Source: Gardnerella vaginalis
GTDB taxonomy: Bacteria; Actinomycetota; Actinomycetes; Actinomycetales; Bifidobacteriaceae
Length of the DNA stretch: 45,741 nucleotides
Assembly (NCBI RefSeq): GCF_001563665.1
Contig: NZ_KQ961857.1
Span: 1 to 45,741, forward strand
Direction of reading: 5' to 3'
Of this stretch, positions 21,210 through 42,769 are shown piece after piece. Positions within the stretch are counted from its first letter, which is position 1; the number at the start of each line of letters is the position of its first letter. The position numbers and the translations under genes are program-made. The notes beneath the pieces were generated by a model, which saw nothing but the letters and a program-made list of their open reading frames with translations, did not search any database and had not been told where the DNA came from.

Positions 21210-22459
21210 AATGCTTCCTCCAACTCTTTACGCATATAACTGCTTAGCTTATCGTAATCTGTAGCCTTGTCAGAATCTTTTTTTAAAGCATTTGCAAAAC
21301 AATTCTCGCCACAATTTGCAAAACAATTTGCAAAATTTTCTTTAGAATTCCGGTAAGCAAATGTCATAAGCTTTACTTGCTCTAACGCTTGGTATAAAAG
21401 CATTTCTTCGCCGCCAATTGCCAATCCGTATTGACTAAAAGCACTAAGAAGCATACTTGGGCGAGGATCATACACAACGTCAAGCAATACTCCCAGACTT
21501 TTTACACACCTATTTTGGCAGTAAGCTTTTAGAGCTAGAGCTATTAAATCTGCAACGTGCGCTGGAACAGTGCTTATTACTATGTCTGCTTCTGATATTG
21601 CTCGAATTGCGTCTAGTGAACTTAAAGATTGCAAAATAAGAGATTCATCATATTCAGATAATTTTTCCGCACACAATTTTTTCGCACTATAGTCAGCAAA
21701 TTTCGCTGTAACGTCTTCACTAAATATTGGGAATTCAATGCCTTGAACCGATTCGTAGTTTGCATTATTTGCGTTACTTTGAATTTTGTTAATTTGAAAA
21801 TCGTGAATTCCGTTACTTTTAATTCCATGATTCTCGTTACTTTGAATTTTGTTACTTTCTAAGCACGGTTCTATACTTCTGCTATTTGGAAAATCAGCAC
21901 AATAGGTACGCAAAATATTATTAAAACGTTCAACGCCTTTTACACTACCATTATTGTCAGTTCTAGCAACAACTTGCACTTTTTCAAGTTTTGAAGCTTG
22001 CGCGATTTCTATAAGTGCAGCCATTGCAGATGATGCAGTATTACCACTACCAATAATAACAGCCTTTTTTACTTGGCTTATGCGCTCTCGCAAAGCTCGA
22101 ATAAAAACTGCAATTATGCCATTTACATCAGTGTTGCACAGTTCAATTTGACAAGGAGATGCTATTGCAGGATTTGTTGTAAAAATCACTGTGTTTGCGA
22201 CTCTAAGTGCGCTAGACCAATAATCGCAAGGAGTACCAAGTTTCATTACGGCTTTTTTAAGCGGCATTGTAAGGCTTAAGCCTTTCCAAGAATCGTCAAG
22301 TTTTAAAATAAAATCAGCTAACTCTGTTTCACTCACTTTTTCTTTGCTATATTGCCAATTTGTTAGACCTAAAGCTTTATAAGCAGCGTTGTGCAATACA
22401 GGAGAAAGTGAGTGAGAAATAGGATCTCCTAATACTGCACAATGAAAAATCTCACACAT
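21206..22459 (-). CDS. aroE: Shikimate dehydrogenase-like protein (AroE) with inserted low-complexity segments
   Basis: Shikimate dehydrogenase reduces 3-dehydroshikimate with NADPH in aromatic amino acid synthesis. The substrate domain has VLGDPISHSLSPVLHNAAY and LSLTMPLKK with the catalytic Lys. The nucleotide domain has IGSGNTASSA, and the C-terminal part has GEEMLLYQA. The protein is 417 residues against about 270-290 for the family. One insertion of about 75 residues, rich in Asn, Ser, Ile and Lys, starts at about residue 185, and a C-terminal tail of about 45 residues holds FANCFANCGENCFAN. ATG at 22459 follows AGGAGA, preferred over TTG at 22474. It lies 11 bases after priA and overlaps rapZ by 4. 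Confidence 0.85.
   Translation of the reverse strand: MCEIFHCAVLGDPISHSLSPVLHNAAYKALGLTNWQYSKEKVSETELADFILKLDDSWKGLSLTMPLKKAVMKLGTPCDYWSSALRVANTVIFTTNPAIASPCQIELCNTDVNGIIAVFIRALRERISQVKKAVIIGSGNTASSAMAALIEIAQASKLEKVQVVARTDNNGSVKGVERFNNILRTYCADFPNSRSIEPCLESNKIQSNENHGIKSNGIHDFQINKIQSNANNANYESVQGIEFPIFSEDVTAKFADYSAKKLCAEKLSEYDESLILQSLSSLDAIRAISEADIVISTVPAHVADLIALALKAYCQNRCVKSLGVLLDVVYDPRPSMLLSAFSQYGLAIGGEEMLLYQALEQVKLMTFAYRNSKENFANCFANCGENCFANALKKDSDKATDYDKLSSYMRKELEEAL
21293..21342. repeat. Short repeats in the aroE C-terminal tail
   Basis: Variants of TTGCAAAACAATT recur three times within about 50 bases. They encode the FANCFANCGENCFAN tail of AroE. Confidence 0.7.
21772..21854. repeat. 20-bp direct repeat within the aroE insertion
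   Basis: CGTTACTTTGAATTTTGTTA occurs at 21772-21791 and again, identical, at 21835-21854. Partly related copies lie between them. The two copies encode the NKIQSN phrases of the AroE insertion, and their 63-base offset keeps frame. Confidence 0.9.
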
Positions 22460-22470
22460 ATTCTCTCCTA

Positions 22471-25263
22471 TCAATAAGCCAATAAATCCTTAGCGTCAAA
22501 ACTAAAACGCAATTCTCCTTTATAATTAAATGCGCTATGTTCAGATAACTCTTTACGCAATCTTCTAACTAATTCCCCTCTAAATTCTAAAGGAACTCTT
22601 ACTACTGCTTTAACACGATCATGCAATTCTTCGAAATGCAAATTGTGATCGCTAACAGGCGTATGCATAGGTACTATTCCAAGCAAAGGCGAAATGGCAA
22701 CATTATCAACAAAAATATTAGGAAGATCATTATTTTTAATATCTTTATTAAATCCGCTAGAAATATAATGATCAGCATTGTTATCATTATTTTTTATTTT
22801 ACTAGACTCAATTTCATCACAATAATTATGAATAGCACCAATATTTTTTAATGCTCTCATAACAGCTTGTCTACTACCCCAAACACATGCAGCACAAACT
22901 GTTGGAGGAAGAGCAGCTCGCTTTCGCTCAGAAAGCTCATAAGATGCCAAAATAGATGAATCCCACGATTCAAGTGACTTAGCAATTGCACTATGAGTTT
23001 CACCTAATATCATCACACATCCACCACGAGATTTTGCAGCGCAAGCGCAAGAAGCACGCATCCACGATTCCAATACATCGTATGAACCATCTAAATTAGT
23101 CAAATATAAACTCGTCCACGCGTCAAGTAAAGCAACTACTTGATATTCTCCAGTAAATGTTTCATATGCAATAGAAGAAATATTAGAAATATTATTGTGA
23201 TTTTTATCACTTTTTTGACTTCTATTTAGATATACAACATCTGACGCATTACTTTGAAGATTACTTTGAAGATTTTCGCCTATATTTTCTACATCACTTA
23301 CGCCATTGATACTATTATCACGATCACTGCTATCAACAAAATCATCGCCTGCAGCACGCTTAAAATCAGGTTCTAAATCAATATCTTTTCTACTATTTTC
23401 AAAAGAATAATTGTTATTTAAACGTTTAACTCTAGGCTCTGCACCCGGAGTTGCAACTACAATTACAGCTTCCTCGTTAATCCAATGCACAATACCGTTT
23501 GAACAATGAGGTGATGAAACAATCAACTTAACACCAGGAAATAGCATTGAAAGCTGCTTAATCGTGCCAGATGCACCGACACGAATTGCGCGCAAAGACT
23601 TACCTGAGCAATACGTACACGACCAATTCGCTAAACTATTACCACACCATGCGCACCTTGAATGAGCGCCATCTATACCAAAATCAATTGGACCTGTACA
23701 ACGACGACATCTAGCTTGATGACGGCATTTAGTACAAATAACTGACTGAGTAACTCCATCTTGAGGAATCGACATTAGCACAGGCTTACCAATGCTTAAT
23801 GCATCTTTTATAATCCTAACTGCTGTATCTGGAACTCTTAATCCTGCACTTTCATCGCCAATTTTTTCTAAAGTCTCACGATTAAGCCATCTTACCCAAG
23901 CTGAAGCTTCATATCTAACAGAATTAAAAGGAGTAATAATCTCACTTTTTCCAGAAACTAACGATGAATTTTGGTAATTATTTGAATTATTGGATTCATT
24001 TAATTTATTTGATTCGTTTGATTCATTTGATTTAAGAGAAGATCTTAAATAATCTTCGCTATCAATTTCATATTGGCTAACTAAACTCCTCGCAAAAGAC
24101 ATAGATATGAATACACCGCCATGACTTTTAGCGCGCAATCGCATAACACCTCTAGCTTGAGCATACGGTTGCATACCGTCAGCCTGCTGATAAGCACAAT
24201 CTTCAACAATAACGAAAAGAGCAGCTCCTTCAACTGGCGCATACATTGCAGCCCTAGTTCCTAATACACACGGAACAATCCCCTTGGAAATTGCAATCCA
24301 AGACCTATATCTATCTGCTGGAGTGTCTGCAGCACAAAGTCGCACAACATCACCAGAAAATTCTCCATTTTTTAACTTCTTATATGGTTTGATTCCGCAA
24401 ACCATAAGCGCTCGCATAACATCATTCACTTCTCGCAATGTAGGCAATACTACTGCGACTTGTCGTCCAGAGCCGATAGCTGTTGTAATAATCCATGCCA
24501 AATCTTGCGCCCAACGTCCAGAGCCCGGCAAAGCATCCAAAATAAAAGAAGAAGATTGACTAGCGTTATTAACTTCATTAGAAAAATCACGAAGCTCATT
24601 GAGCTCATCACAAGAAATATAAGAATATGGATTATTAACATGACATAATGCTTTCTTCAAAGATAAAGCATTATTATAAGACGCTATCATCCTCTCATCG
24701 CTTGTACGAAATACACGCTCTGAGCCGTTATATTCAACTAAATTACTTGATAAGTCTTCGTGAAATTTAAGCGATGGAAGAATTTTTTCTCGAAGCGTTT
24801 TAATCCTAAGTTTTTGAGAGCGATTACAAAAATAAGCATCGTCTTCAACACTTGCTATTCTTTGAGGAACAGCCAACCTAATAATATTTGCAGGAGTTCC
24901 ACCATAAGCATCAGCTATAGATAGAATATCTGCTCGCATTGAAGAAGATAATAAAACTCCATTTGACAAAACACGATCAATAAATCTCAAGGAATCTTTT
25001 GTAGTATGAGATTCATCTGACCTAGACCAAATAATTCCATTAACACGTCTTGCGCCAAAACGAACTCGAACTAATACTCCAGGGCGCGCAATATCATCAT
25101 ATTTTTCTGGAATAAGATAATCAAAAGTATGACCTAAATGCGCAGCTTGAACATCAAGCATAACATGAGCAACAGCATTAGAATGTGCAGGCACACTATA
25201 AGATGCGCTTTTTTTACGCTTCTTCTTGTGCGCTAAACCTTCTAATTCAGGTTGTTGCAGCAT
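22471..25263 (-). CDS. priA: Primosomal protein N' (PriA), helicase-inactive type, with low-complexity insertions
   Basis: PriA reloads the replisome at stalled forks. The DNA-binding N-terminus (about 30-130) and the eight zinc-binding cysteines (510, 513, 519, 522, 537, 540, 549, 552) are present. The helicase motifs are degraded: the Walker A position reads ALPGSGRW (about 244-251) without the Lys-Thr/Ser, and VEDC (353-356) replaces the DEEH box. Actinobacterial PriA proteins are known to lack these motifs, so a structural, ATP-independent role is likely. Three Asn/Ser/Asp-rich segments (about 411-438, 614-698, 818-850) enlarge it to 930 residues. ATG at 25263 follows AAGG. It is downstream of metK, as in many actinobacteria. 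Confidence 0.9.
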   Translation of the reverse strand: MLQQPELEGLAHKKKRKKSASYSVPAHSNAVAHVMLDVQAAHLGHTFDYLIPEKYDDIARPGVLVRVRFGARRVNGIIWSRSDESHTTKDSLRFIDRVLSNGVLLSSSMRADILSIADAYGGTPANIIRLAVPQRIASVEDDAYFCNRSQKLRIKTLREKILPSLKFHEDLSSNLVEYNGSERVFRTSDERMIASYNNALSLKKALCHVNNPYSYISCDELNELRDFSNEVNNASQSSSFILDALPGSGRWAQDLAWIITTAIGSGRQVAVVLPTLREVNDVMRALMVCGIKPYKKLKNGEFSGDVVRLCAADTPADRYRSWIAISKGIVPCVLGTRAAMYAPVEGAALFVIVEDCAYQQADGMQPYAQARGVMRLRAKSHGGVFISMSFARSLVSQYEIDSEDYLRSSLKSNESNESNKLNESNNSNNYQNSSLVSGKSEIITPFNSVRYEASAWVRWLNRETLEKIGDESAGLRVPDTAVRIIKDALSIGKPVLMSIPQDGVTQSVICTKCRHQARCRRCTGPIDFGIDGAHSRCAWCGNSLANWSCTYCSGKSLRAIRVGASGTIKQLSMLFPGVKLIVSSPHCSNGIVHWINEEAVIVVATPGAEPRVKRLNNNYSFENSRKDIDLEPDFKRAAGDDFVDSSDRDNSINGVSDVENIGENLQSNLQSNASDVVYLNRSQKSDKNHNNISNISSIAYETFTGEYQVVALLDAWTSLYLTNLDGSYDVLESWMRASCACAAKSRGGCVMILGETHSAIAKSLESWDSSILASYELSERKRAALPPTVCAACVWGSRQAVMRALKNIGAIHNYCDEIESSKIKNNDNNADHYISSGFNKDIKNNDLPNIFVDNVAISPLLGIVPMHTPVSDHNLHFEELHDRVKAVVRVPLEFRGELVRRLRKELSEHSAFNYKGELRFSFDAKDLLAY
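23248..23271. repeat. Perfect 12-bp tandem repeat inside priA
   Basis: ATTACTTTGAAG occurs twice in a row. It encodes the LQSNLQSN phrase in the second PriA insertion and keeps frame. Confidence 0.9.
23985..24034. repeat. Degenerate 9-bp repeat inside priA
   Basis: Variants of TTTGATTCA/TTTGATTCG recur and encode the NES/NKL-type tripeptides of the first PriA insertion (residues about 411-430). The unit length keeps frame. Confidence 0.75.
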
Positions 25264-27079: not shown

Positions 27080-27688
27080 TCACTTCAAATCATATTCTTG
27101 AGCAATTATATTCCATAACTCGTTAGCAGCACGATTTACATCATCATTAACAATAACTACGTCAAATTCGCTAGCAGCAGCTATCTCTACTTTCGCAGTT
27201 TCTAAACGCCGCTTTTGCTGCTCAGGAGTTTCAGTACCACGACCAATCAATCTTCTTTTAAGTTCTTCAAAACTTGGCGGAGCTATAAAAACATAAACAA
27301 CTTCTAATCCTAAACGGGAAGCTTCTTGCTTAACTCGCCTAGCACCTTGCAAATCGATCTCTAAAAGAGTAGGAATATTCTGCTCTAAATGATCTAAAAC
27401 AGGCTGAAGAAGAGTTCCGTAATAAGCCATTCCATGAACTAGTGCAGTTTCTAAAAATTCTCCGTTACGCTGACGGCGCTTAAACTCATCTTCATCTAAA
27501 AACCAATAATGAATGCCATTAAACTCTCCTGGGCGAGGAGATCTAGTAGTTGCAGAAACAGAGAGCCAAATATTAGGGTGTTTTTCACGCAATACGCCTT
27601 CAACAGTACCTTTTCCAGCGGCAGTAGGACCAGTAAGAACAATAAGCCTACGCTTACGAACACCGTATGTATAAGTTGTATTGGCCAT
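27080..27688 (-). CDS. gmk: Guanylate kinase
   Basis: This 202-residue kinase makes GDP from GMP and ATP. The P-loop reads GPTAAGKGTVEGVL, TTRSPRPGEFNGIHYWFL is the GMP-binding signature, and LLEIDLQGARRVK holds the Walker B region. ATG at 27688 (MANTTYTYG) was chosen. The frame is open for another 29 codons upstream, but those encode an aromatic-rich stretch unlike the family. In actinobacteria it normally follows pyrF and mihF; no integration host factor gene is seen in the 200 bases between the pyrF-like gene and gmk. Confidence 0.95.
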   Translation of the reverse strand: MANTTYTYGVRKRRLIVLTGPTAAGKGTVEGVLREKHPNIWLSVSATTRSPRPGEFNGIHYWFLDEDEFKRRQRNGEFLETALVHGMAYYGTLLQPVLDHLEQNIPTLLEIDLQGARRVKQEASRLGLEVVYVFIAPPSFEELKRRLIGRGTETPEQQKRRLETAKVEIAAASEFDVVIVNDDVNRAANELWNIIAQEYDLK

Positions 27689-27888
27689 CGTAACATCGTG
27701 CTCCACTAAAATCATGTTTTGTTTACTATAGCTTACGTAAAAATACATTACATAAACATATAAACACGTTACCACTCTTACATGAATTATAACTTCGTTT
27801 TCTGTTAATGCCTTATTGCTGATTTTTATTTGCTCTTAAATCCAACAATTTAATTTAATATTTTCGTCAAGCTTAATGTTGAGAATCG

Positions 27889-28785
27889 TCAATCCATTAA
27901 AGCTTGACGAATATCCCAAGCAATACGCTCAGTAGCAGCTGAAAGAGAGCCGATATCTGGACCATGAGAAGCAATAGATCTAGAAACAGTAACTAAAACA
28001 TTTCCGTGAGTTCCAGCAAATACAGTTTTCAAATCGTTTGCTTCAGCTCCTTGCCAACCATATCCAGGAGAAAGAATTGGACCTGTAAAACTAGTAAGAT
28101 CAACATCTCCACCATTCATCCAATCTCCAATAGTAGCTCCAACAATTAAGCCAACCGAACCCATGCCTTTAGTGTGCTCATTAAAGCTTTGAGCAGTTTG
28201 AGCAATACCATGAGCAACAGTATGCCCGCGATAACTTCCACTTTGACGAATAGCTGTTTGAAGATTAGCTCCTTCACGATTAGATGTCAGAGAAGCCATG
28301 AAAACTCCACATCCATTATTCAAAGCTTCGTTTATAAGACTACTCATAGAGCGAGCGCCATAATATGGAAGAAGAGTTATAGCATCTGCTCTTAATGGTG
28401 CTCCAGGCTTAAAATATGCATCTGCTAAAGCTGAAATAGTTGTAGATAAACCACCATGACCGCAATCAACAATAGTAATAACATCCATTTGACGAGCCGC
28501 ATAAAGAACACGTTCAAGCGCTGCGAAACCTTTAGATCCGTAGCGCTCAAACATACTCGATTGGAATTTAACTGCAGCAGCACGACCGTTCATAGATTGA
28601 AGCATTCGCATAGAGAACAATTCAGCACCTTGAGCATCCATATTGTATCCCCAATTAAGCAACATTTTCCTATGAGGATCAATACCGACACATAGAGGTC
28701 CATATTTTGCCATTGCATTTTGTAAACGCAAACCAAAATCAGATCTTTGTGCTTGTAATTCTTGATCGCATATGCTTTCAGTCAT
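27889..28785 (-). CDS. PyrF-like protein (orotidine-5'-phosphate decarboxylase fold) lacking catalytic residues
   Basis: This 298-residue protein aligns by eye with the actinobacterial type of OMP decarboxylase along its whole length: GPLCVGIDPH, AAVKFQSSMFERYGSKG, ADAITLLPYYG, VGLIVGATIGDW and LSPGYGWQGAEAND. It sits at that gene's ancestral place after carB. The catalytic DxKxxD motif, normally DAKRGD, reads DCGHGG (107-112): the Lys and the second Asp are both Gly, while Lys73 of AVKFQ and the first Asp remain. Decarboxylation is therefore unlikely. An intact pyrF is present at 38908. The frame is uninterrupted, so selection may keep another role, such as ligand binding. ATG at 28785 has a weak ribosome site, 27 bases after carB. 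Confidence 0.85.
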   Translation of the reverse strand: MTESICDQELQAQRSDFGLRLQNAMAKYGPLCVGIDPHRKMLLNWGYNMDAQGAELFSMRMLQSMNGRAAAVKFQSSMFERYGSKGFAALERVLYAARQMDVITIVDCGHGGLSTTISALADAYFKPGAPLRADAITLLPYYGARSMSSLINEALNNGCGVFMASLTSNREGANLQTAIRQSGSYRGHTVAHGIAQTAQSFNEHTKGMGSVGLIVGATIGDWMNGGDVDLTSFTGPILSPGYGWQGAEANDLKTVFAGTHGNVLVTVSRSIASHGPDIGSLSAATERIAWDIRQALMD

Positions 28786-28812: not shown

Positions 28813-31800
28813 CTACTTTTGGTTTTCAGCACATTCTATTGCAAACAGTTGCTTAGCATGCTCCTGTATACTCATAACCTGATAATCATTGTTTTTAACA
28901 GCTTCAATAGCCATTAAAACAGGTGCGAACTCAGTAATTGTAGTGAATTGAGGAAGATCTGCAGCAACAGCAGCAGCACGAATTGCATATCCATCAGTGC
29001 GAGATCCTCTAGAATTCGGTGTGTTCAGCACCATATCAATCTTACCATTCTCAATAAGTTCTACTACGTTTTTGCCAATTCTTTCTTTAGAATATTCGCT
29101 ATCACGCACATCTTTAGCGGTATCACCAATACTAGAAATTTTATCTACAATAACAGAATCAATACCGTATCTACGCAATACAGAAGCAGTACCTTCAGTA
29201 GCCCAAATAGTAAAACCAAGTTCCACTAAACGAACAGCTAATAATGGCAATTGTCTTTTATCTGCATCACTTACAGAAACAAATACATTTCCGCTTGTTG
29301 GCAATCCTCCCTTATATGCAGCAAGCTGGCTTTTAGCAAAAGCGTGTGGAAAATCTCTATCGAATCCCATAACTTCACCAGTTGAACGCATTTCAGGTCC
29401 AAGAAGAATATCAACAGTACGTCCAACAGGAGTGCGGAAACGCTTAAAAGGCAGCACGGAAGCTTTAATAGCAACTTGTTGACCTTGATGAATATCACCG
29501 CCGTCACCCTTAGGAAGAAGAAGACCACGTTTACGTTGCTGTTCGATTGTTTCACCAGCCATAATTCGTGCAGCAGCTTTAGCAAGCGCTACACCAGTTG
29601 CCTTAGATGCAAACGGAACTGTGCGCGATGCTCGAGGATTTGCCTCAATCACGTACAAAGTATTCGCCATAAAAGCGTACTGAACGTTAATAAGACCGCG
29701 AACTGAGCAGCCGCGAGCAATCGAAAGCGTGCCCTCACGAAGGCGGCGAATCTGATCGTCCGAAAGTGTGCTTGGAGGAAGAGTGCAAGCTGCGTCACCA
29801 GAGTGCACGCCAGCTTCCTCAACATGTTCCATAATTCCGCCAATATAAAGCTCATTGCCGTCATAAAGCGCGTCAACATCAATTTCAATAGCGTCTTGCA
29901 GGAACTTATCAATCAAAAGAGGAGAAGGAAGCCTGCCAGAAACAACAGTGTCTGCACGAGCCTCATTCAATGCGCGCTCAACATATTTTGCAAGCTGAGA
30001 GTCATCGTACACGATTTCCATGCCACGCCCGCCAAGCACGTAGCTTGGTCGCACAAGAACCGGGTAACCGATTGCGTGAGCAGCATCCCTTGCTTCATCT
30101 AAACTTAACGCTGTACCGTATCGAGGAGCATTCATTCCTTCTTGACGAAGAACTTCACCGAAAAGTTCACGATTTTCAGCCAAATCAATAGCTTCAGGAG
30201 TTGTTCCCAAAATTGGAACTCCTGCAGCTTTCAGACGAGCAGCAAGCGAAAGTGGAGTTTGACCACCAAGCTGCACAATCACGCCTTTAACTGGTCCAAG
30301 TTTCTTTTCAGCTTCATAAATTTCAAGAACATCTTCGAAAGTAAGAGGCTCAAAGTAAAGACGATCAGACATATCATAATCTGTAGAAACAGTTTCAGGA
30401 TTACAATTAACCATAATAGTGTCGTAATCCTTACCCAGTTCTTGAACAGCATGAACACAAGTGTAATCAAACTCAATTCCTTGTCCAATTCGATTCGGAC
30501 CAGAGCCAAGAATAATTACTGCTTCACGATTGCGCTTCTTCAATTCACTTTCATCAGCATAGCAAGAATAGTAATAAGGAGTAATAGCATCAAACTCTGC
30601 AGCACATGTATCTACAGTTTTATAAACAGGATGCAATCCATAAGCCCAGCGAAGCTCGCGGACCATATTTTCACCCTCATCACCAAGAGAACGCAAATGT
30701 GCAATTTGAACGTCCGAAAGACCTGCAAGCTTAGCATTCTTCAAAACTTTAGGAGTTAAAGTTTCAGCATTTTTAACATATAAAGCTGTTTTATTGATTT
30801 GTGCAAGTTGATGAATAAACCACGGATCAATTTTAGTTGCATCGAAAATCTGTTCAGGAGTAGCTCCTCCCCACAAAGCACGCTGAATTTGCAAATATCT
30901 ATGCTCTGTTGGAGTATGAATCTCATTTAGAAGATCCTCAACTTCTTCTTTACTTGGACACTCACCATCCCAGCTAAAGCATGCATGACGCTTGTCAATT
31001 GAGCGCATTGCTTTACCAAGAGATTCCTGGAAGTTTCCAGCTAACGCCATTGCTTCACCAACTGACTTCATAGAAGTAGTAAGAGTGGTATCTGCTCCTG
31101 GGAATTTTTCGAAAGCAAAACGCGGAATCTTAGTAACAACATAGTCAATCGTTGGCTCAAAACTTGCAGGAGTAGAACGAGTAATATCATTTTGAATCTC
31201 ATCCAAAGTGTATCCAAGAGCAAGTTTCGTTGCAATTTTCGCAATCGGGAAGCCAGTAGCTTTAGATGCAAGAGCAGAAGAACGAGATACGCGAGGATTC
31301 ATCTCGATTACAATTATGCGACCCGTTTGAGGATTGATTGCGAACTGAATATTGCATCCACCAGTATCTACACCAACACCGCGAATAATAGCAATACCAA
31401 TATCACGCATCTTTTGATATTCGCGATCTGTAAGAGTAAAACATGGAGCTACAGTAATAGAATCACCTGTATGCACTCCTACTGGATCAACATTTTCAAT
31501 AGGGCAAACAACTACAACATTATCCTTTGAATCTCGCATAAGCTCAAGTTCAAATTCTTTCCAACCTTCTATTCCTTCTTCAATAAGAACTTCATTAGTT
31601 GGAGAATAATGTATGCCTGCTCCTGCAATACGATGCAACTCTTCTTCATTATGAGCAATACCAGAGCCCAATCCACCCATTGTAAAGCTTGGACGTACTA
31701 CTACTGGGTATCCTAAAGTTTCAACAATTTTGTCTACTTCTTCTATTGAATGAGCAATAAATGATTTTGCGCTTTCCGCTCCAGCTTTTTCAACGACTTT

Positions 31801-32199
31801 CTTGAAAAGCTCACGATCTTCTCCTCTATCGATTGCTTCCAAAGAAGCGCCAATCAGCTCAACGTTGTACTTCTCTAGAATTCCTGCACGACCTAAATCC
31901 ATCGCTGCATTAAGCGCCGTTTGACCGCCTAGTGTTGGCAACAGCGCGTCTGGCTTCTCTTTTGCAATTATTCTCTCTAAAATTGACGTGTCAATCGGCT
32001 CAATATAAGTAGCATCAGCAAGCTCAGGATCAGTCATAATCGTAGCTGGATTAGAGTTGACTAAGATTACGCGAATACCCTCTTCATGCAAAACTCTACA
32101 AGCTTGAGTTCCTGAATAATCAAATTCTGCAGCCTGGCCAATAACAATAGGACCAGAACCAATTACCATAACAGACTTTATATCAGTACGTTTTGGCAT
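28813..32199 (-). CDS. carB: Carbamoyl-phosphate synthase large subunit
   Basis: This 1128-residue subunit makes carbamoyl phosphate from bicarbonate, two ATP and ammonia passed from CarA, feeding both pyrimidines and arginine. Two homologous ATP-grasp halves are visible. The first starts [21 protein letters not shown] and has [16 protein letters not shown]. The second starts [19 protein letters not shown] and has [17 protein letters not shown]. The C-terminal MGS-like domain (about 960-1115) is where allosteric effectors bind in the family. The start is ATG at 32199, 19 bases after carA, in the same operon. The middle of the gene is slightly richer in G+C than its ends. Confidence 0.97.
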
Positions 32200-32218: not shown

Positions 32219-33442
32219 TTACTTTTCTGATTTAACGCAATTGTTATTATGCAAGCGCATAAGCTCTATAAAACGATCAAACAAATAAGATGCATCATGA
32301 GGACCAGCAGCAGCTTCAGGATGATATTGCACAGAGAAAGCTGGAATATCTAAACATTGCAATCCTTCAACAACGTTATCGTTCAAATCAATATGAGAAA
32401 CCAAAACTTTACCAAATTTACCATTCTCATAAGGAGATTGAACCGGCTGACCAATAGGAGCATCCACAGCAAAACCGTGATTATGCGCTGTAACTTCAAC
32501 TTTTCCAGTGGTTAAATCTTTTACAGGCTGATTTACTCCGCGATGACCAAATTTTAACTTGTAAGTATCGAATCCTAACGCTCTACCTAAAAGCTGATTC
32601 CCGAAGCAAATTCCAAAGAATGGATATTTTGCATCCAAAACTTTACGCAACAACTCAACTTCACGATTAGCTTGAGATGGATCTCCAGGACCATTAGAGA
32701 AAAATACTCCATCAACATTAAGATTTTGAAGATCTTCAAAAGAAATTCCTGAATTTACAACATATACTTTGCATCCGCGCTCAGCTAAACGATGCGGAGT
32801 CATTGCTTTAATTCCAAAATCAACAGCTGCAACACTGAATAACGGTTTCTTGCCCTCATACTCTCCAGATGGCTCAATAGTATAAGTAATTTTAGTACTT
32901 ACTTCATCAGTTAAACGCAAGCCTTGCATTTGAGGAGTTTTCTTAATTTCATTAACAAACGATGCAACTGTACGTATTGCTCCAGTTGTACTGTCAATAA
33001 GCGCATCACTAGAAAAAATGCCGGCACGCATAACGCCTACCGAGCGTAAATGACGTACCAGCTTTCTAGTATCAATACCACTGATTGAAACGATACCTTG
33101 TTTTTCTAAATCATCTTGCAAGCAACCAGTAGATCTCCAATTACTAACAACCGGGCTTGGAACTTTAACAACATATCCAGCAACCCAGATTTTTGAAGAT
33201 TCTGGATCTTCAAGGTTAACACCTGTATTTCCTATGTGTGGGAACGTTTGAACAACGATTTGTTGATCATAACTTGGATCAGTTAGTGTTTCCTGATAGC
33301 CTGTCATACCTGTTGAGAACACAATCTCAGCGCATGTAGAACCTTTAGCACCAAAAGGTTTACCAACGTAAACCTGACCATCCTCTAATACCAATACTGC
33401 ATCGTCACTGTCGAATCCAGCAAAGGTGTCATTGTAGTCCAC
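32219..33442 (-). CDS. carA: Carbamoyl-phosphate synthase small subunit
   Basis: This 407-residue glutamine amidotransferase subunit hydrolyses glutamine and channels ammonia to CarB. The N-terminal domain has [18 protein letters not shown]. The class I amidotransferase domain has GPGDPSQ, the nucleophile Cys279 in [16 protein letters not shown], and the His/Glu of [10 protein letters not shown]. The start is GTG at 33442 with a strong GGGGG-type ribosome site. It begins the carA-carB-pyrF-like unit. It is separated from nusB by a terminator, so it needs its own promoter. Confidence 0.97.
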
Positions 33443-35038: not shown

Positions 35039-36043
35039 TTAATTTTGACCATCTTGACCACTTTGACTATCTTGACTATCTTGAGTGTCAATATAATCAG
35101 GATCAACAGAGTCTGAATTATCATCACGACCAGACGGGACGTATCCTCCATCATCATCTTTTTGATGTTGAGAAGAAAGCGGATATCCATTACCATCACG
35201 ATTTAGAAAATTAGAACTCAAATTTTTAATTTTCTCAAGATATTGATCAAAAGCTTTCTTTAAATCGTCAATGCATTGCTTCATCTCTTTAATATTATTG
35301 TTATTGCTATTATTAAGAGCTTGATTAGCTAAATCAACGATTTTCTGTAATTCATCTTTAGCTTGAGATAAAACAGGAATATTTTTAGTTTTATTTATAA
35401 GATCTTTGCCTTTAGAAACCAATTTCACTAGCTTTGCTGAAATAACACTCTTGGCAGCTTTAACAGCGTTATAAGCAGATTTTTTCAGGGAATCATTATC
35501 TTGACGGAAATTTTCAATTTTCCCAGAAAACTTATCTTCCACAGAAGGAGAATTGCTAGAATCAGCACCAACTGGACAATTTTGAATCTTCTCATTTAAA
35601 TCCGCTTTAACATAATTTAAAGAAGATTCGAAATCATCAAAAGCGCTCTTAGCTTCATCAGAATTCACTACGAAATCATATGTTTTAATTTCTGTAGCAT
35701 TACTAACATCGTCACTAGAAAGAGTTGCCTCTAGATTTTTTTGCTCAAAAAGCAAATCTTTACGCAAGCGAACGCAATTCTTAGTAGGCTCACTAACATT
35801 ATTATGTTTTATGCTATTAGAATTAGTAGTAAACAAGAAAAATACAATTGACGCAACAATAGCAATTGCAATAACGCAAACAGCAACTACAGCTGCAATT
35901 TCTCTTTTACCACCAAATAATGAATTATCAAAATCATCATTATAACTAGAACCGTTTTCGCTCGTGTCTTTATCATAATCAGCAGGTATAAATTCAGGAG
36001 GCATATCTTCCGGGTTATCGAAGTTGCTATTTTGATCATTCAT
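35039..36043 (-). CDS. Unrecognised single-pass membrane protein
   Basis: I do not recognise this 334-residue protein. Residues 1-47 are acidic and Asn/Asp-rich, with no cleavable signal. One membrane helix spans about 48-71, and the helical domain that follows (about 85-275) is predicted to lie outside the cell. It is rich in Lys, Asp and Ser, with two cysteines (about 90 and 156) that could pair. The C-terminal 50 residues are disordered, ending in DSQ/DGQ-type tripeptides. The layout recalls FIVAR-like or other surface helical domains, but no motif proves it. ATG at 36043 is the first start. It sits between pyrE and efp, in the same direction as both. Confidence 0.65.
   Translation of the reverse strand: MNDQNSNFDNPEDMPPEFIPADYDKDTSENGSSYNDDFDNSLFGGKREIAAVVAVCVIAIAIVASIVFFLFTTNSNSIKHNNVSEPTKNCVRLRKDLLFEQKNLEATLSSDDVSNATEIKTYDFVVNSDEAKSAFDDFESSLNYVKADLNEKIQNCPVGADSSNSPSVEDKFSGKIENFRQDNDSLKKSAYNAVKAAKSVISAKLVKLVSKGKDLINKTKNIPVLSQAKDELQKIVDLANQALNNSNNNNIKEMKQCIDDLKKAFDQYLEKIKNLSSNFLNRDGNGYPLSSQHQKDDDGGYVPSGRDDNSDSVDPDYIDTQDSQDSQSGQDGQN
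35045..35089. repeat. Five 9-bp repeats encoding the C-terminal tail of the membrane protein
   Basis: TTGACCATC, TTGACCACT, TTGACTATC, TTGACTATC and TTGAGTGTC lie in tandem. They encode the DTQ-DSQ-DSQ-SGQ-DGQ tail. Unit loss or gain would keep the reading frame. Confidence 0.85.
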
Positions 36044-36121: not shown

Positions 36122-36820
36122 CTATTCACGCGCTCCATACTCTTGCAAATACTTTTTTGCGCTTCTTACAAGATTTTCATCCATAACAGCACTTCCATCA
36201 CTATTTGTAAGCTTTTGAGCTGCATTAAAAATTTCACTTACGTTAGCAATTGGCAAAACAGGGAAGCCAAATTCTTTCTCGACTGCTTTTACTGCAGAAA
36301 GATCGCTATCTTTTGTGCGCTCCATTCTATCAACTGCTAAAATCAAACCGACTACTTCAACTTTTGCTTCAGAATTTAATTTTGGTAAAGTTTCACGAAC
36401 AGCTGTTCCTGCAGTCATAACATCGTCAACTAATAAAACTTTCATGCCATCTTTCAAAGGCTTTCCAACCATAACACCGCCATCGCCATGATCCTTTCTT
36501 TCTTTACGATCGAAAGTAAAACCAACCGGCATATTGTAATTATTAGTCAACGCAATAGAAGTAGAAACAGCCAAAGGAATTCCTTTATACGCTGGACCAA
36601 ATACAGTATCAATATCTTTCGGGAGTTGACTGTTATTTATTGCTTGTACAACTCTTTTAGCGTAATAATCTCCAAGAGTTGCAATTTTCATTCCATCGTC
36701 AAATGCTCCAGCGTTTATGAAATAAGGCGATTTTCTACCAGACTTCAATGTGAAATCACCAAATTTAAGAGCTCCTGAATCAAGTAAAAACTTAGTAAAA
36801 CGTTCGTCTAACTGTTCCAT
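36122..36820 (-). CDS. pyrE: Orotate phosphoribosyltransferase
   Basis: This 232-residue enzyme joins orotate to PRPP, giving OMP. The PRPP-binding signature [16 protein letters not shown] and the flexible loop with [12 protein letters not shown] are complete. The N-terminus [24 protein letters not shown] is that of the single-function bacterial enzyme. ATG at 36820 has a modest GAG site. It is the last enzyme gene of the pyrB-C-F-K-D-E cluster, 44 bases after pyrD. Confidence 0.96.
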
Positions 36821-36864
36821 TATTAACTCACTTTCTTAATATTTTTATAAGTTTTGCAAAATCG

Positions 36865-37821
36865 CTAACGCCAAGTCTTACCTTCAGCAAGCAAAGATGC
36901 TAATTTTGGTCTAGAATCAAGCAAATCATCTAATTCTCTAGCAATACGGATTGGAGCTGTAGGATCAACTAAAGCAGCAGCACCAACTTCTATTGCATTA
37001 GCGCCAGCATACAAGTATTCAAGTGCTTTTTCTCCAGAATCAATTCCGCCAATACCAATAATAGGAATATCTGGCATAGCTTGACGAACTCGCCAAACAA
37101 ATCCTAAACCAATTGGAAAAACAGCAGGCCCAGAAACACCACCAGTGCGATTAGCAATAATTGGCTCACCAGTTCGAATATCAATACGCAATCCAACTAA
37201 AGTGTTAATCATACTAAGAGCGTCAGCACCAGCATCAACTGCAGCTTTACAAATTGTCACAATATCTGTAACATTCGGAGTCATTTTCACAATCATCGGC
37301 TTATCTGTCATTGCGCGAAGACGAGTAATTAAGCGGTGTAATGCCACTGGATCCGTGCCGACACTCATACCACCGTGAGTGACATTTGGACAACTAACGT
37401 TAATCTCCAACATATCTGCAGAAGAATCTGCAAGTTTAGCTACAACCTGAGCATAGTCATCGTCACTATGGCCTGCAACATTAGTAATTACAAGCGCTCC
37501 CATCTTTTTAAGCTTAGGTAGCTCATCTACTAAATAATGGTCAACTCCAGGATTTTGTAAACCAACTGCATTTACCATTCCAGAAGGAGACTCTGCTGTT
37601 CTAGGAGCAGGATTTCCTTGCCAAGGCACAGGTGAAACACCTTTAGTACATATTGCACCAAGCTGACTAACATCATAAAAACGACGACATGCTGCAAGCT
37701 GAAAAGTTCCAGAAGCAGTTCCAACCATGTTTTTCCACTTAACACCTGCAACTTGAGTTGGATGCTTCCACACGTGACTTGTGTCAAAACCTAAAGTTGC
37801 AGCGGAATTTGTAGCGTTCAT
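36865..37821 (-). CDS. pyrD: Dihydroorotate dehydrogenase, class 1B catalytic subunit
   Basis: This 318-residue FMN enzyme oxidises dihydroorotate to orotate. NMVGTASGTF begins the barrel and NVSCPNVTHGG holds the catalytic Cys144, which defines class 1. GGIDSGEKALEYLYAGANAIEVGAA is the FMN phosphate site near the C-terminus. Adjacency to pyrK shows that it is the NAD-dependent class 1B, working as a PyrD-PyrK heterotetramer in the cytoplasm. ATG at 37821 lies 9 bases after the pyrK stop, so translation is probably coupled. Confidence 0.96.
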   Translation of the reverse strand: MNATNSAATLGFDTSHVWKHPTQVAGVKWKNMVGTASGTFQLAACRRFYDVSQLGAICTKGVSPVPWQGNPAPRTAESPSGMVNAVGLQNPGVDHYLVDELPKLKKMGALVITNVAGHSDDDYAQVVAKLADSSADMLEINVSCPNVTHGGMSVGTDPVALHRLITRLRAMTDKPMIVKMTPNVTDIVTICKAAVDAGADALSMINTLVGLRIDIRTGEPIIANRTGGVSGPAVFPIGLGFVWRVRQAMPDIPIIGIGGIDSGEKALEYLYAGANAIEVGAAALVDPTAPIRIARELDDLLDSRPKLASLLAEGKTWR

Positions 37822-37830
37822 ATTTACTTC

Positions 37831-38727
37831 TTACTCCCAACCCAATCGCTTAGAATCAAAAACTGGACCTTCATTACAAACTTTCAATCGACCTTCTAGA
37901 GTATCTACTACACAAGCAACACAAGTGCCATAGCCACAACCCATACGAGCCTCTAAACTAAGTTGACATTCAATACTACGCTCATGCGCCCAATGAGAAA
38001 CAGCTTTCATCATTGCAAGAGGACCACACGAAAGAATTACAATCGGCAAATTATCATTAAAATTAAAATGATTTTCTTCCTCTAATTTATTAAGAAGCGT
38101 AATAACAGTTCCTTCAGAATTAGTAATACTATGAACATCACTAATATATTCTTTCATTAAATCATCCGCAAAACGCTTATCTCTATATCCAAGAATCGCG
38201 CTTACAGTAGAATTCTCACACTTACTTAATGCTTGAGAAGCACATATCAAAGGAGGAACTCCTAATCCTCCACTTACAAGAATATAATGAGCAGATTTAG
38301 AAATATCATACCCTATTCCTAAAGGACCAATCGCATCAACACTATCACCTGCACGAAGGCGAGAAAAAGCTTTCGTACCGACTCCTACAACAGCGAATAT
38401 TAAAGTAAAAGTATCACCTTCAACACTTGCAACTCCAAAAGGTCTAGGAAGCATAGTTGTTGAATCAGGAGAATACAAATTTACAAATTGAGCAGGAAGC
38501 GCACATTCAGCTATAGCAGAATCTCGCAAAGTCAAACGATATACACCATCATCAAGTTTCTGATTGTCTATTACTTCTATAGCACGTCTTGCTAAAAGAG
38601 GTGAATATTTTGCGTCATCATTAGATTTTGAGGGACTACCACCTATATCATCAGCATTATTATTACGAAAAGTAAATATGGAGCTTTCCAAAGCTTTTCG
38701 CGTATGCATAAACATGCCATCACTCAT
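37831..38727 (-). CDS. pyrK: Dihydroorotate dehydrogenase electron-transfer subunit (PyrK)
   Basis: This 298-residue flavoprotein passes electrons from PyrD to NAD. A ferredoxin-reductase-like FAD domain (LPRPFGVASV at about 93-102) and an NAD domain (LVSGGLGVPPL) precede the 2Fe-2S cluster site Cys264, Cys269, Cys272 and Cys284. The N-terminal extension of about 45 residues rich in Asn and Ser exceeds the usual start of the family. ATG at 38727 follows GGGG. The spacer of 180 bases to pyrF upstream is AT-rich with no clear terminator. Confidence 0.94.
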   Translation of the reverse strand: MSDGMFMHTRKALESSIFTFRNNNADDIGGSPSKSNDDAKYSPLLARRAIEVIDNQKLDDGVYRLTLRDSAIAECALPAQFVNLYSPDSTTMLPRPFGVASVEGDTFTLIFAVVGVGTKAFSRLRAGDSVDAIGPLGIGYDISKSAHYILVSGGLGVPPLICASQALSKCENSTVSAILGYRDKRFADDLMKEYISDVHSITNSEGTVITLLNKLEEENHFNFNDNLPIVILSCGPLAMMKAVSHWAHERSIECQLSLEARMGCGYGTCVACVVDTLEGRLKVCNEGPVFDSKRLGWE

Positions 38728-38907
38728 GTGATACCCCTACTCTTGTAGTAATTGCTATCAATTTTTATTTTTAAATCTAAAAAGCTTAAATTTTAGTTAT
38801 TATAAACAATTTATTAAGCTATCTTTTAAATTATTCTTAAGTTATATCAAATTACTATTATTTGCACTTAACAGTTTCACGAATATTCACCTTTTAATCA
38901 ACATATT
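38728..38907. other. 180-base AT-rich spacer between pyrF and pyrK
   Basis: No gene, clear promoter or strong hairpin was found. A small CTAC/GTAG pair lies close to the pyrK start. It is the only long gap within the pyrB-to-pyrE cluster. Confidence 0.5.
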
Positions 38908-39942
38908 TTAGCGATACACAGCTTGACGCAAGTTATCGCGCATATCACATGCAGATTCATAAGCACAATCTCTAACAATTTCAAGAACACTATCTATAGA
39001 TAACGAACCCTTATTTTTTATATATGATTCTGATTTTTTCCACGATCCTATAATTCCACGAGAAGAATTAACTATAGCTCCAGAGGCAAATTCGTCAAAC
39101 ATGCCAGCAACATCTTGAGCTGTACCGCCTTGAGCACCATATCCTGGAACCAAAAAGAAAGTATGAGGCATAAGATTGCGTAAATGTTTACCTTCTTCAG
39201 GATGAGTAGCTCCAACTACAGCACCGACTCTAGAATAACCATGCTTTCCAATATTTGACTCACCCCATTGTTCAATAAGATCAGCCATATGCTCGTATAC
39301 AGCTTTACCATCTTGTACAACAAGCTCTTGCAACTCTTTACTAGAAGGATTTGACGTTCTAAGAAGAACAAAAATGCTCTTATTATACTTAACAGCATTA
39401 TTTATAAAAGGCTTCACGCCATCTGAACCCATATAAGGATTAACAGTTAATGAATCTTCATGCCAAACATCATTATTTTGTGATTTTTCTAAAATTTTTG
39501 TTAAAGAATCATTCAATAATTCATTTTTTGAAGTCAAATAAGATGTAATATCTGTAAAACCGCTTATATGAGCAGCATACTGAGCTGCAGTAGATCCAAT
39601 ATCTCCTCTTTTAGCATCCCCTATTACAACTAATCCTTTAGATTTTGCATATTCGCAAGTCATAGTGTATGTATCTATTCCAGCAGGACCAAGCGCTTCA
39701 TACATAGCTATTTGAGGTTTTACTGCTGGAACAACATCTGCTATTGCATCAATAATCGAACGATTAAATTCGAAATACGCTGTAGCCATAAGAGTTGAAA
39801 GAGCCTCAGAATCATCAACTTCTTGTAAAACTTCATCAACAAGTCCGTTAATAATCTCAATAGGAACAATATCGGCTTTAGGATCTAACCCTACAACGCT
39901 AGGATTTTGTTTAGATTCGATTGCTTCTATAAGTTCGTCCAT
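38908..39942 (-). CDS. pyrF: Orotidine-5'-phosphate decarboxylase, catalytic copy
   Basis: This 344-residue enzyme makes UMP from OMP. The catalytic motif DAKRGDIGST (109-118) is intact, with AVKPQIAMYEALG before it and VPGYGAQGGTAQDV and NSSRGIIGSW after it. It begins NPSVVGLDPKADIVP and resembles the pyrKD-linked type found in Firmicutes rather than the actinobacterial one, which suggests a separate origin from the copy at 27889. ATG at 39942 follows AGGGGA. It lies 30 bases after pyrC in the pyr cluster. Confidence 0.96.
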   Translation of the reverse strand: MDELIEAIESKQNPSVVGLDPKADIVPIEIINGLVDEVLQEVDDSEALSTLMATAYFEFNRSIIDAIADVVPAVKPQIAMYEALGPAGIDTYTMTCEYAKSKGLVVIGDAKRGDIGSTAAQYAAHISGFTDITSYLTSKNELLNDSLTKILEKSQNNDVWHEDSLTVNPYMGSDGVKPFINNAVKYNKSIFVLLRTSNPSSKELQELVVQDGKAVYEHMADLIEQWGESNIGKHGYSRVGAVVGATHPEEGKHLRNLMPHTFFLVPGYGAQGGTAQDVAGMFDEFASGAIVNSSRGIIGSWKKSESYIKNKGSLSIDSVLEIVRDCAYESACDMRDNLRQAVYR

Positions 39943-39972
39943 ACAATTTCCCCTAAATTAGATAAATTAAAT

Positions 39973-41385
39973 TCACATTCTTGAAAACGCAATTTCAGAT
40001 CCAATAATTGTAGCTACTGGACGTCCTTTAACATCCCATCCATCGAATGGAGTGTTACGAGCTTTTGAATGGAAAGATTCAGCGTTCACAGTCCATCTTT
40101 CCTTTGTGTTAATCAAAACTAAATCAACATTTTCAGGATGCTCAGTTATGCTCAATCTCAAAGTACGCTTCGTGTCACATCTAGAAGATACGTTAAGCAA
40201 TGCAGCAATATCAGTTGGCCTTCTACTCATCAATTGCATAGGATTGACTGACATCAACTCAATCAAATGTTTATCATCTGTGTATCCTGCATCTACTAAC
40301 ACTTTTCTGCAAACAGCATATGCACATTCAAGACCAATAATTCCGTTAGGAGATACAGCAAAATCACCAGACTTTTCTTTTTTAGTATGAGGAGCGTGAT
40401 CTGTTGCAATCATATCAATTGTTCCATCTGCAATAGCAGCTAGTGTTGCTTGACGATCTGCTTTTGAACGAAGAGGAGGATTCATTTTTGCCATTGAACC
40501 GTAACGCAATACATCTTCATCACATAATGCAAGATAGTGAGGAGCTGTTTCACAAGTAATAGGCAAACCTTCTTTTTTAGCTTTACGTATAGCTTCAAAA
40601 GATGCAGCAGTACTTACATGCTGAAAATGAACATGCACACCAGTTTTACGAGCAGCGTCAATATCTCTTTGAACAATTGATAATTCTGTAGAAGATGCAA
40701 TACCTTCAACACCAAGCATTTTCGCAACAGGACCATCATTCATACATCCACTTTCGTGATGTTCGCAATGTTCTACGAAAGGCAAACCAGTTTTCTTAGC
40801 CATATCAAGAACATCTAACAAGATAGATTCAGGTACAGCAGCACCATCATCACTTATTGCAGTAACAGGATGCTTACGCATTGGAGAAGTTTTTTCATCA
40901 TCGCTTATTCCAAGAACATATTTTTCCCAATGCTCTATATTGCTAGGCTTTAATCCTTTACGACCAAGAGAAGCGCAAACAGTTACATCGTAGCGAACAG
41001 GTAATTTCACTCCATAGATACATCCGTATCGTTGCAAATAATCTATAACATTTTCAACATCAAATGGAGCATCAACCCATTTCTCACCATCAACTGCAGG
41101 AATCGTATTTGGCATGATTAAAACTTGCGTATAACCACCAGCAGATGCAGCTTCGCTTCCTGTTTGCATAGTTTCTTTGTCAGTTTGACCAGGATCTCTA
41201 AAATGCACATGCGGATCAGCAAAACCAGGAGCGACAATCATGTCACTTGCATCAATATCTCCACTTAATCGCGCATTAGGCTCTATCAAAGCATCTTGGC
41301 GAACACCATCAACTATAAGATCTATACGTTCACCAGTATCCCACACAGAGATATTGCGCAAATTTAAGGTACGTGCCTCGTCCAT
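39973..41385 (-). CDS. pyrC: Dihydroorotase
   Basis: This 470-residue class I dihydroorotase closes carbamoyl-aspartate to dihydroorotate with a zinc centre. The metal-binding DPHVHFRDPG (His59, His61) and the later ATDHAPHTKKEK signature are present, with MPNTIPA between them. The C-terminus is slightly longer than the usual 420-450. ATG at 41385 follows GGAG at good spacing. It is 61 bases after pyrB, in the same operon. Confidence 0.96.
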   Translation of the reverse strand: MDEARTLNLRNISVWDTGERIDLIVDGVRQDALIEPNARLSGDIDASDMIVAPGFADPHVHFRDPGQTDKETMQTGSEAASAGGYTQVLIMPNTIPAVDGEKWVDAPFDVENVIDYLQRYGCIYGVKLPVRYDVTVCASLGRKGLKPSNIEHWEKYVLGISDDEKTSPMRKHPVTAISDDGAAVPESILLDVLDMAKKTGLPFVEHCEHHESGCMNDGPVAKMLGVEGIASSTELSIVQRDIDAARKTGVHVHFQHVSTAASFEAIRKAKKEGLPITCETAPHYLALCDEDVLRYGSMAKMNPPLRSKADRQATLAAIADGTIDMIATDHAPHTKKEKSGDFAVSPNGIIGLECAYAVCRKVLVDAGYTDDKHLIELMSVNPMQLMSRRPTDIAALLNVSSRCDTKRTLRLSITEHPENVDLVLINTKERWTVNAESFHSKARNTPFDGWDVKGRPVATIIGSEIAFSRM

Positions 41386-41445
41386 ATAACTCCTAGTTTG
41401 CGTAAATTTTTATACTTAATATATTGTAATAGATTTTATTTTTCT

Positions 41446-42699
41446 TTATGCCTTATTATCACAATATAAGCAATGATATTCATGCATTCCAGATTCTGAT
41501 TTGTAGAATTTTTTAACTAATGTCAATTCACTATTTGTAATACAGCGAGGATTTGAACAAGTCATATTTTTTGGAGCATTCATATCATTATTGTGGATTC
41601 TTGGAAGGCTCAGAGAAATTCCATTAGCATCTTTAGATTCATTCTCTTCTAAAGGTACTCTTACAAAATCTGTAGGCTCATAGCCATCAAGTTCATCTCC
41701 AAGAACAGAACTTTCCAACGCCATACGCATTAGCATTCCATTCTTTACTTGATCAAAGTATGCAGCTCTAGAATCGCAATCAACATCAACTGAAATCTCG
41801 TTAATTCGAGGAAGAGGATGCAAAACAGCAGTATTTGGCTTTGCTTTATTTAATTTTTCTTCAGTCAAAATATAAGTATCACGAAGTCGCAAGTATTGAT
41901 CTCGATCAGTAAAACGCTCTTCTTGCACACGAGTCATATAAAGAACATCAAGTTCGCCGATTACTTTCATCAAGTCACGAGTTTCTTCATACGTGCAAGA
42001 AGGAGTATCTTTAATTCTGTCGATTACATATTGAGGAGTTTTAAGCTCATCTGGGCTAATAAGCACAAAATGAACGTTTCCAAAACGACAAAGAGTTTCA
42101 ATAAGTGAGTGAACTGTGCGTCCATATGTTAAATCTCCACACAATCCAACTGTTAAATTATTTAATCTACCAAAACGCTCAAGAATCGTTGCTAAATCTG
42201 CAAGAGTTTGCGTAGGATGCATATGTCCGCCATCTCCTGCGTTAATAATAGGTGTATTAACAGCTTGCGTTGCAACGAAAGCTGCACCTTCTTTCGGGTG
42301 GCGCATTGCTACAACATCAACATAATTAGACACGACTTTCAAAGTGTCACTTACTGTTTCACCTTTACTAGCACTAGAAAGACCAGCACCAGCGAAGCCG
42401 ATAACCTTACCCCCTAAACGCAACATTGCAGTTTCAAAACTCAAACGAGTTCGAGTACTAGGCTCATAAAAAAGAGTGGCTAACAATCTGCCATCGCAGG
42501 TGTGAGCCACTTCTTTACGGTGCGAATCAATGTATCGCGCTTTATCTAAAAGCATTCTAATTTGCGCAGTCGAAATATCATCCAACGTAACAACACTTTT
42601 ACCACTTAAAGACTGAGAAATATTTGACTCAATTGGAAGAAAACAACCAGAATTTTCGGATTGGGCATCTGATGCAAGCAATTTAGCGGAAATTTTCAC
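41446..42699 (-). CDS. pyrB: Aspartate carbamoyltransferase catalytic chain fused to the PyrI zinc domain
   Basis: This 417-residue protein catalyses the first committed step of pyrimidine synthesis. The catalytic chain has the carbamoyl-phosphate site STRTR (81-85), the HPTQTLADL block and HPLPR (294-298). After it come a linker and NMTCSNPRC...YHCLYCDNKA with Cys381-x4-Cys386 and Cys410-x2-Cys413, the zinc site of the regulatory chain PyrI. The allosteric nucleotide-binding domain of PyrI is absent and no separate pyrI follows. Loss of CTP/ATP control is an inference. GTG at 42699 follows AAAGGA; TTG at 42759 would add 20 residues. About 35 residues precede the conserved start. Confidence 0.93.
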   Translation of the reverse strand: MKISAKLLASDAQSENSGCFLPIESNISQSLSGKSVVTLDDISTAQIRMLLDKARYIDSHRKEVAHTCDGRLLATLFYEPSTRTRLSFETAMLRLGGKVIGFAGAGLSSASKGETVSDTLKVVSNYVDVVAMRHPKEGAAFVATQAVNTPIINAGDGGHMHPTQTLADLATILERFGRLNNLTVGLCGDLTYGRTVHSLIETLCRFGNVHFVLISPDELKTPQYVIDRIKDTPSCTYEETRDLMKVIGELDVLYMTRVQEERFTDRDQYLRLRDTYILTEEKLNKAKPNTAVLHPLPRINEISVDVDCDSRAAYFDQVKNGMLMRMALESSVLGDELDGYEPTDFVRVPLEENESKDANGISLSLPRIHNNDMNAPKNMTCSNPRCITNSELTLVKKFYKSESGMHEYHCLYCDNKA

Positions 42700-42743
42700 G
42701 GGCTTTCCTTTCTCTGTAGAAAGACGGCCACATATTGCGCGAC

Positions 42744-42769
42744 CTTGTAGATTGTACAAGATTTACAAG
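42744..42769 (-). promoter_or_regulatory. Palindrome over the pyrB promoter region
   Basis: CTTGTA (42744-42749) and TACAAG (42764-42769) are inverted around TTGTACAA (42752-42759), itself palindromic. A minus-strand -10 box TACAAT (42751-42756) lies inside. A regulator bound here would block pyrB transcription. No PyrR attenuator or pyrR gene was recognised in the window. Confidence 0.5.

Follow-up and report, generated by a model that had tools for sequence, protein, structure and literature searches.

OMP decarboxylase (PyrF) is a textbook enzyme, and the question raised by the present locus of Gardnerella vaginalis is why a PyrF homologue that lacks the catalytic Lys and the second Asp of the active site should be kept beside carB in a genome that also holds an intact PyrF. 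Within the window (by which we mean the whole stretch of 45,741 nucleotides that was analysed) this homologue, here called psF, is a native-type PyrF of 298 residues at 27889..28785 on the minus strand, with an ATG start and an open reading frame. It scores 201.6 bits against the curated PyrF model TIGR02127 (cut-off 110.6) and 52.2 against PF00215 of Pfam (cut-off 27), and the Streptomyces avermitilis PyrF (3v75) aligns to its residues 15-296 (E 1.8e-60), which sets the DAKRGD motif of 3v75 against the sequence DCGHGG at psF residues 107-112 (28450..28467, minus strand), where DAKRGD is expected. The sequence-only reading had described just such a PyrF-like frame with DAKRGD replaced by DCGHGG, and these matches bear it out. 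The NCBIfam model scores psF as PyrF despite the motif loss, and an AlphaFold2 model (pLDDT 90.4) predicts the TIM-barrel fold of OMP decarboxylase, with 3v75 as the closest fold. Nonetheless, the D-x-K-x-x-D catalytic motif of OMP decarboxylase is absent from the window protein and from all 89 relatives in which the motif was read (out of 119 genomes with psF). The KGPDC and HPS branch of the superfamily has a D-x-K-x-x-D motif, and a place for psF in that branch was rejected since its motif reads D-C-G-H-G-G. PF00215 is moreover the sole Pfam domain of psF, which carries no fused phosphoribosyltransferase and thus is not a UMP synthase (PyrE-PyrF).

The neighbourhood follows the conserved order carA-carB-psF-gmk, as had been proposed. 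All of these genes lie on the minus strand: carA (carbamoyl-phosphate synthase small subunit, 32219..33442; Pfam CPSase_sm_chain and GATase), then carB (large subunit, an ORF at 28813..32199 that neighbours psF in most relatives too), whose stop lies 27 bp upstream of the psF start, and beyond psF the guanylate kinase gene gmk (27080..27775; Pfam Guanylate_kin, 137.5 bits), with an ORF listed from a GTG for which the ATG at residue 30 is the likelier start. The second pyrF that had been reported at 38908, with DAKRGDIGST intact, is likewise present (pyrF2, 38908..39942, minus strand; 257 bits on TIGR02127). It sits within a cluster of ORFs on the same strand (36122..42759) that reads pyrB-pyrC-pyrF2-pyrK-pyrD-pyrE in transcription order, the names other than pyrF2 being ones we assigned by the look of the proteins, and the cluster order is identical in a relative (G075). 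The best solved match of pyrF2 is 3r89 from Anaerococcus prevotii, and pyrF2 is closer to this Anaerococcus enzyme (156 bits) than to the Streptomyces one (102 bits). Among the best 120 of 7999 scored pyrF2 relatives, those that are named belong to Bifidobacterium and Gardnerella. Promoter, terminator and Rfam scans gave nothing useful. Elsewhere in the window a 334-residue protein (35039-36043) with a single hydrophobic stretch and no Pfam match sits between efp-like and pyrE-like genes, and AroE-like (21206-22474) and PriA-like (22471-25263) proteins contain Asn/Ser-rich low-complexity inserts, Pfam recognising one N-terminal domain in each.

The altered motif is a property of psF as a group. 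In its 89 relatives the catalytic Lys position is occupied by Leu (69), Gly (12), Met (7) or Ser (1) and never by Lys, and the second Asp of the motif is Gly in every one. Both residues are kept in 26/26 rows of native-type actinobacterial PyrF and in none of 70 psF rows (69 relatives plus the window protein), and on these counts, together with those of the 89 relatives, a chance change of the motif was rejected. Judged by its sequence, psF is very probably non-catalytic. The rest of the ligand site is largely kept: D36, K73, D107, T116, S168, Q245 and R269 all persist in 64 of the 70 psF rows, the window protein included. We take these seven to be the equivalents of D20, K42, D70, T79', S127, Q185 and R203 of the Methanothermobacter thermautotrophicus enzyme, and presumably to contact the phosphate, ribose and pyrimidine of the ligand. 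Ligand binding may not be universal, given that S168P occurs in four psF rows and that two divergent orthologues (L085 of genome G164 and L086 of G096) have most of their ligand-contact residues changed in frames that are still open.

Four positions are near-fixed in psF and differ in the active rows (F74 in 69/70, Y142 in 68/70, A164 in 69/70 and W244 in 67/70), and a short insert with G183 is found in all 70 rows; the bulky F74, Y142 and W244 may have altered the ligand of psF. Nearly uniform change at these inner positions would suit a new enzyme whose remodelled pocket acts on a phosphorylated nucleotide or sugar, as would the retention of D107 (70/70) and K73 (69/70), and the selection on psF in Gardnerella, which equals that on carB (median dN/dS 0.030 for both). 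We nevertheless consider a new enzyme unlikely, for K109 and D112 have no uniform acid or base in their stead (L, G, M or S at position 109, H, R or Q at 110 and G at 112), and the fusion to Gmk and the absence from whole lineages described below do not suggest a pathway step.

To place psF in its family we counted it as present where a search of 189 Bifidobacteriaceae genomes with psF as query gave a match with E below 1e-60, and orthologues were found in 119 of them. Orthologues broken by stops had been named beforehand as the outcome that would speak against a retained role, and an internal stop was found in 0/119. The PyrF model matches 166 of the 189 genomes and leaves 23 without any match, and 43 genomes (a figure obtained by difference, their motifs being unread) have a PyrF-family match without psF, so that psF is dispensable in whole lineages. 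The gmk neighbourhood of 18 psF-less genomes contains no remnant of psF, the best matches having E 0.03 or worse and lying outside the interval. Four genomes (G015-G018) hold a single copy with DxKRGD, which we take for the ancestral state. Among 183 other Actinomycetales genomes sampled, matches to psF number one in 172, two in 2 and none in 9 (table count); the 22 such outgroup loci that were fetched all read D[AV]KRGD, with carB in the stretch in 18 and gmk in 17. In a quick tree, in which the program flagged several long branches, 81 psF rows and 26 active rows are split by one branch (SH-aLRT 99). A mobile copy was considered and rejected: 27 plasmid records match psF, every one at under 60% identity. 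The window protein is thus no local case. In the Bifidobacteriaceae the native PyrF of actinobacterial type has, in our reading, become a pseudoenzyme, and psF occurs widely in the family.

Within Gardnerella the pseudoenzyme is the better conserved of the two copies. Median NG86 dN/dS is 0.030 for psF, 0.114 for the active pyrF2, 0.030 for carB and 0.042 for gmk, with synonymous sites near saturation and 55, 56, 77 and 34 usable pairs, respectively, out of 78; median pN over all 78 pairs agrees (0.042 for psF versus 0.127 for pyrF2). Identity to the window is higher for psF than for pyrF2 in all 24 genomes compared, and the values for 12 Gardnerella genomes are 91-96% (psF) and 73-77% (pyrF2). 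By these measures, selection on psF in Gardnerella is stronger than on the working PyrF. A psF kept by purifying selection, which the sequence-only reading had named as a sign of a retained role, is hence supported by both the median of 0.030 and the lack of stops, and for the same two reasons a decaying pseudogene was rejected. The idea that psF is a slow OMP decarboxylase or a decaying relic draws on the residual activity of an engineered enzyme without the catalytic Lys (K72A; PMC12395307) and on the two divergent orthologues that have lost the ligand site. Given open frames throughout, the low dN/dS in Gardnerella and the lack of both Lys and Asp in 89/89 relatives, we regard this idea as highly improbable, and the measured conservation speaks against its relic half in particular. 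As for the window itself, psF is 91-96% identical to its eight closest loci (Gardnerella, one of them titled Bifidobacteriaceae bacterium) and 96% identical to the nearest named genome, in contrast with pyrF2, which is 98-99% identical over its length to three proteins among the matches listed and about 77% identical to the next Gardnerella proteins. The window perhaps represents a branch of Gardnerella that has seldom been isolated.

What, then, of the second copy? All 53 second-copy loci that were fetched keep D[AVI]KRGD. The suggestion that this second pyrF was the incoming one fits the data, because a single match is the rule elsewhere in the order (172/183 genomes) and because pyrF2 is nearer to the Anaerococcus enzyme. 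Active sites of OMP decarboxylase are shared between two subunits, which would let a dead copy affect a working one, and psF might accordingly be a prozyme that modulates or stabilises the active PyrF2. At least two PyrF-family matches are indeed carried by 117 of the 119 psF genomes. The two exceptions (G072 and G094), which have psF without a second pyrF, also lack a close pyrD and any glnE match (the latter in a search run without a positive control); as glnE adjoins pyrB in G075, we read both as one assembly gap, and rejected them as cases of psF without pyrimidine synthesis. On the other hand, psF and pyrF2 share only about 24-28% identity in Bifidobacteriaceae, too little for mixed dimers to be likely. 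Moreover, 43 genomes manage with a PyrF-family match without psF, and in Gardnerella pyrF2 evolves faster than psF. A prozyme is in our judgement a decidedly unlikely role.

A further association is that with gmk, which is the next gene after psF in 89/89 loci (median distance 123 bp, maximum 926 bp, hit to hit). This adjacency alone is inherited, because 17 of the 22 outgroup loci likewise have gmk downstream of an active pyrF. However, psF and gmk form one reading frame without a stop in 23 of the 89 loci, including that of Bifidobacterium callitrichos DSM 23973. Twenty of the 89 had been chosen since open-frame lengths hinted at fusion, and one of those 20 is unfused; in the remaining 30 genomes with psF the open-frame lengths (judged by eye) give no hint of fusion, which makes 23/119, and one locus whose gmk row is absent from the comparison (G085) has a psF frame too short for fusion. 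The linkers span 21-155 residues, among which Ala, Thr, Asp and Glu seem to be abundant. Control pairs gave no fusion at all: 0/83 for carB-psF, 0/29 for carA-carB and 0/17 for active PyrF-Gmk in the outgroup loci. On the tree the fused state changes at least twice on well supported branches and five times by parsimony, as gains or losses. Fusion may also arise passively, through stop loss between close neighbours. An AlphaFold2 model of a fused psF-Gmk was poor (pLDDT 72.8, pTM 0.71) and shows no interface, and a search for Gmk columns separating 47 psF-bearing from 18 psF-less genomes (80% in each) found none. The Gmk signature insert described for Bifidobacteriales (PMC4921777) was rejected as a sign of partnership, being present both with and without psF.

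Another candidate partner is CarAB, which in the sequence-only reading psF would perhaps regulate. In 83 of 89 loci carB is the upstream neighbour of psF, and in the window only 27 bp separate the two. Three of the six exceptions (G186-G188) have lost both carA and carB from the locus and retain psF between nusB and gmk, and in a fourth (G174) the native carB (84%) lies on a different contig from psF, with gmk still adjoining psF; the last two (G050 and G173) have no carB beside psF and are uninformative, with a contig end nearby in G050 and carB at a contig end in G173. The best carB match elsewhere in G186-G188 (L088, L089 and L090) is of a distant type (47-48% identity), as though a foreign gene had taken the place of the native one. 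Other carB matches are interrupted (L007 and L057) or, in G050 (L235), contain one in-frame TGA, be it through masked bases, assembly errors or real change. Since gmk is fused to psF, and since it stays where the native carB has gone, we favour Gmk over CarAB as the partner; with no carB-psF fusion in 83 loci either, a regulator of CarAB strikes us as quite improbable.

Our preferred reading, to which we assign a probability of roughly 0.42, is that psF would be a non-catalytic nucleotide-binding regulatory protein (for UMP, OMP or a related nucleotide) whose partner is most likely guanylate kinase; that it is inactive, what it binds, which partner it has and which way control runs are each deduced. 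While the pyr cluster supplies an intact second PyrF, the copy next to carB has lost its catalytic Lys and the Asp that reaches into the active site of the neighbouring subunit. It retains the predicted fold and, in most species, the residues for phosphate, ribose and pyrimidine contact. It could then bind UMP, OMP or a similar nucleotide without turnover and pass the state of its ligand to a partner, most likely Gmk, the enzyme that forms GDP, whose gene is just downstream and fused in 23 species, so that GTP supply would be tied to the pyrimidine pool. A biochemical precedent comes from the M. thermautotrophicus enzyme, whose tetrad is K42, D70, K72 and D75': K72A is reported (PMC12395307) to lower activity by about 5 orders of magnitude, with some activity left, and to lower the Kd for UMP by the same extent (i.e. 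binding ~5 orders tighter). In the apo form, L123A gives indications that the dimer dissociates, which ligand reverses, although this change by itself had little effect on the activity of the archaeal enzyme. psF has no equivalents of K72 and D75'. By spacing to the serine of its TSN motif, we presume that psF probably carries an L123A-type change too. Because its changes match K72A, and probably L123A, a natural UMP-binding switch can fairly be inferred; control of Gmk takes a second, further inference. A fuller account is built on this analogy and must be called doubtful: in it, the ancestral OMP decarboxylase, on losing its catalytic Lys, became a sensor that binds UMP tightly, and it was coupled to guanylate kinase, through gene fusion more than once, so as to keep purine and pyrimidine nucleotides in balance. 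With regard to what had been proposed before, a psF that is very probably non-catalytic, held by purifying selection and coexisting with an intact PyrF stands; the role in control of CarAB is weakened, and that of an OMP/UMP sensor is plausible.

In the open-licence PMC literature we found no account of a natural pseudo-PyrF in Bifidobacteriaceae, and sources that name psF proteins mostly use the name of the enzyme. Because of this naming, metabolic models of bifidobacteria and Gardnerella may include two decarboxylases although one of them is probably inactive, and selection based on pyrF would have to use the correct copy. Among papers on Bifidobacterium breve transposon and transcript data, PMC5514069 states that most genes for purine and pyrimidine synthesis are essential and leaves pyrF unnamed in its main text, and passages of PMC12459721 and PMC7917626 do not tell the two pyrF copies apart. 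The natural psF sequences also offer a test bed for the change from enzyme to sensor.

Relative to native-type actinobacterial PyrF (TIGR02127; 3v75), psF is without the catalytic Lys and the second Asp, and has gained further inner changes, a short insert and sometimes a fused Gmk. The engineered K72A enzyme of M. thermautotrophicus and human K314A (3ewx, by its title a complex with BMP) resemble psF in that the catalytic Lys is gone and the ligand site kept, but are single designed changes, whereas psF is also without the Asp and bears further changes. PyrF2 of the same genome shares the superfamily and the curated model TIGR02127 with psF, yet has an intact DAKRGD, is closer to a Bacillota enzyme, occupies a different locus and evolves faster. 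Finally, catalytically dead paralogues are known to serve as regulatory subunits, as in HisZ and the trypanosomatid prozymes, where, as with psF, a dead copy is retained beside an active enzyme; in those systems the partner is known, whereas for psF it is the gene order and the fusions that point to guanylate kinase.
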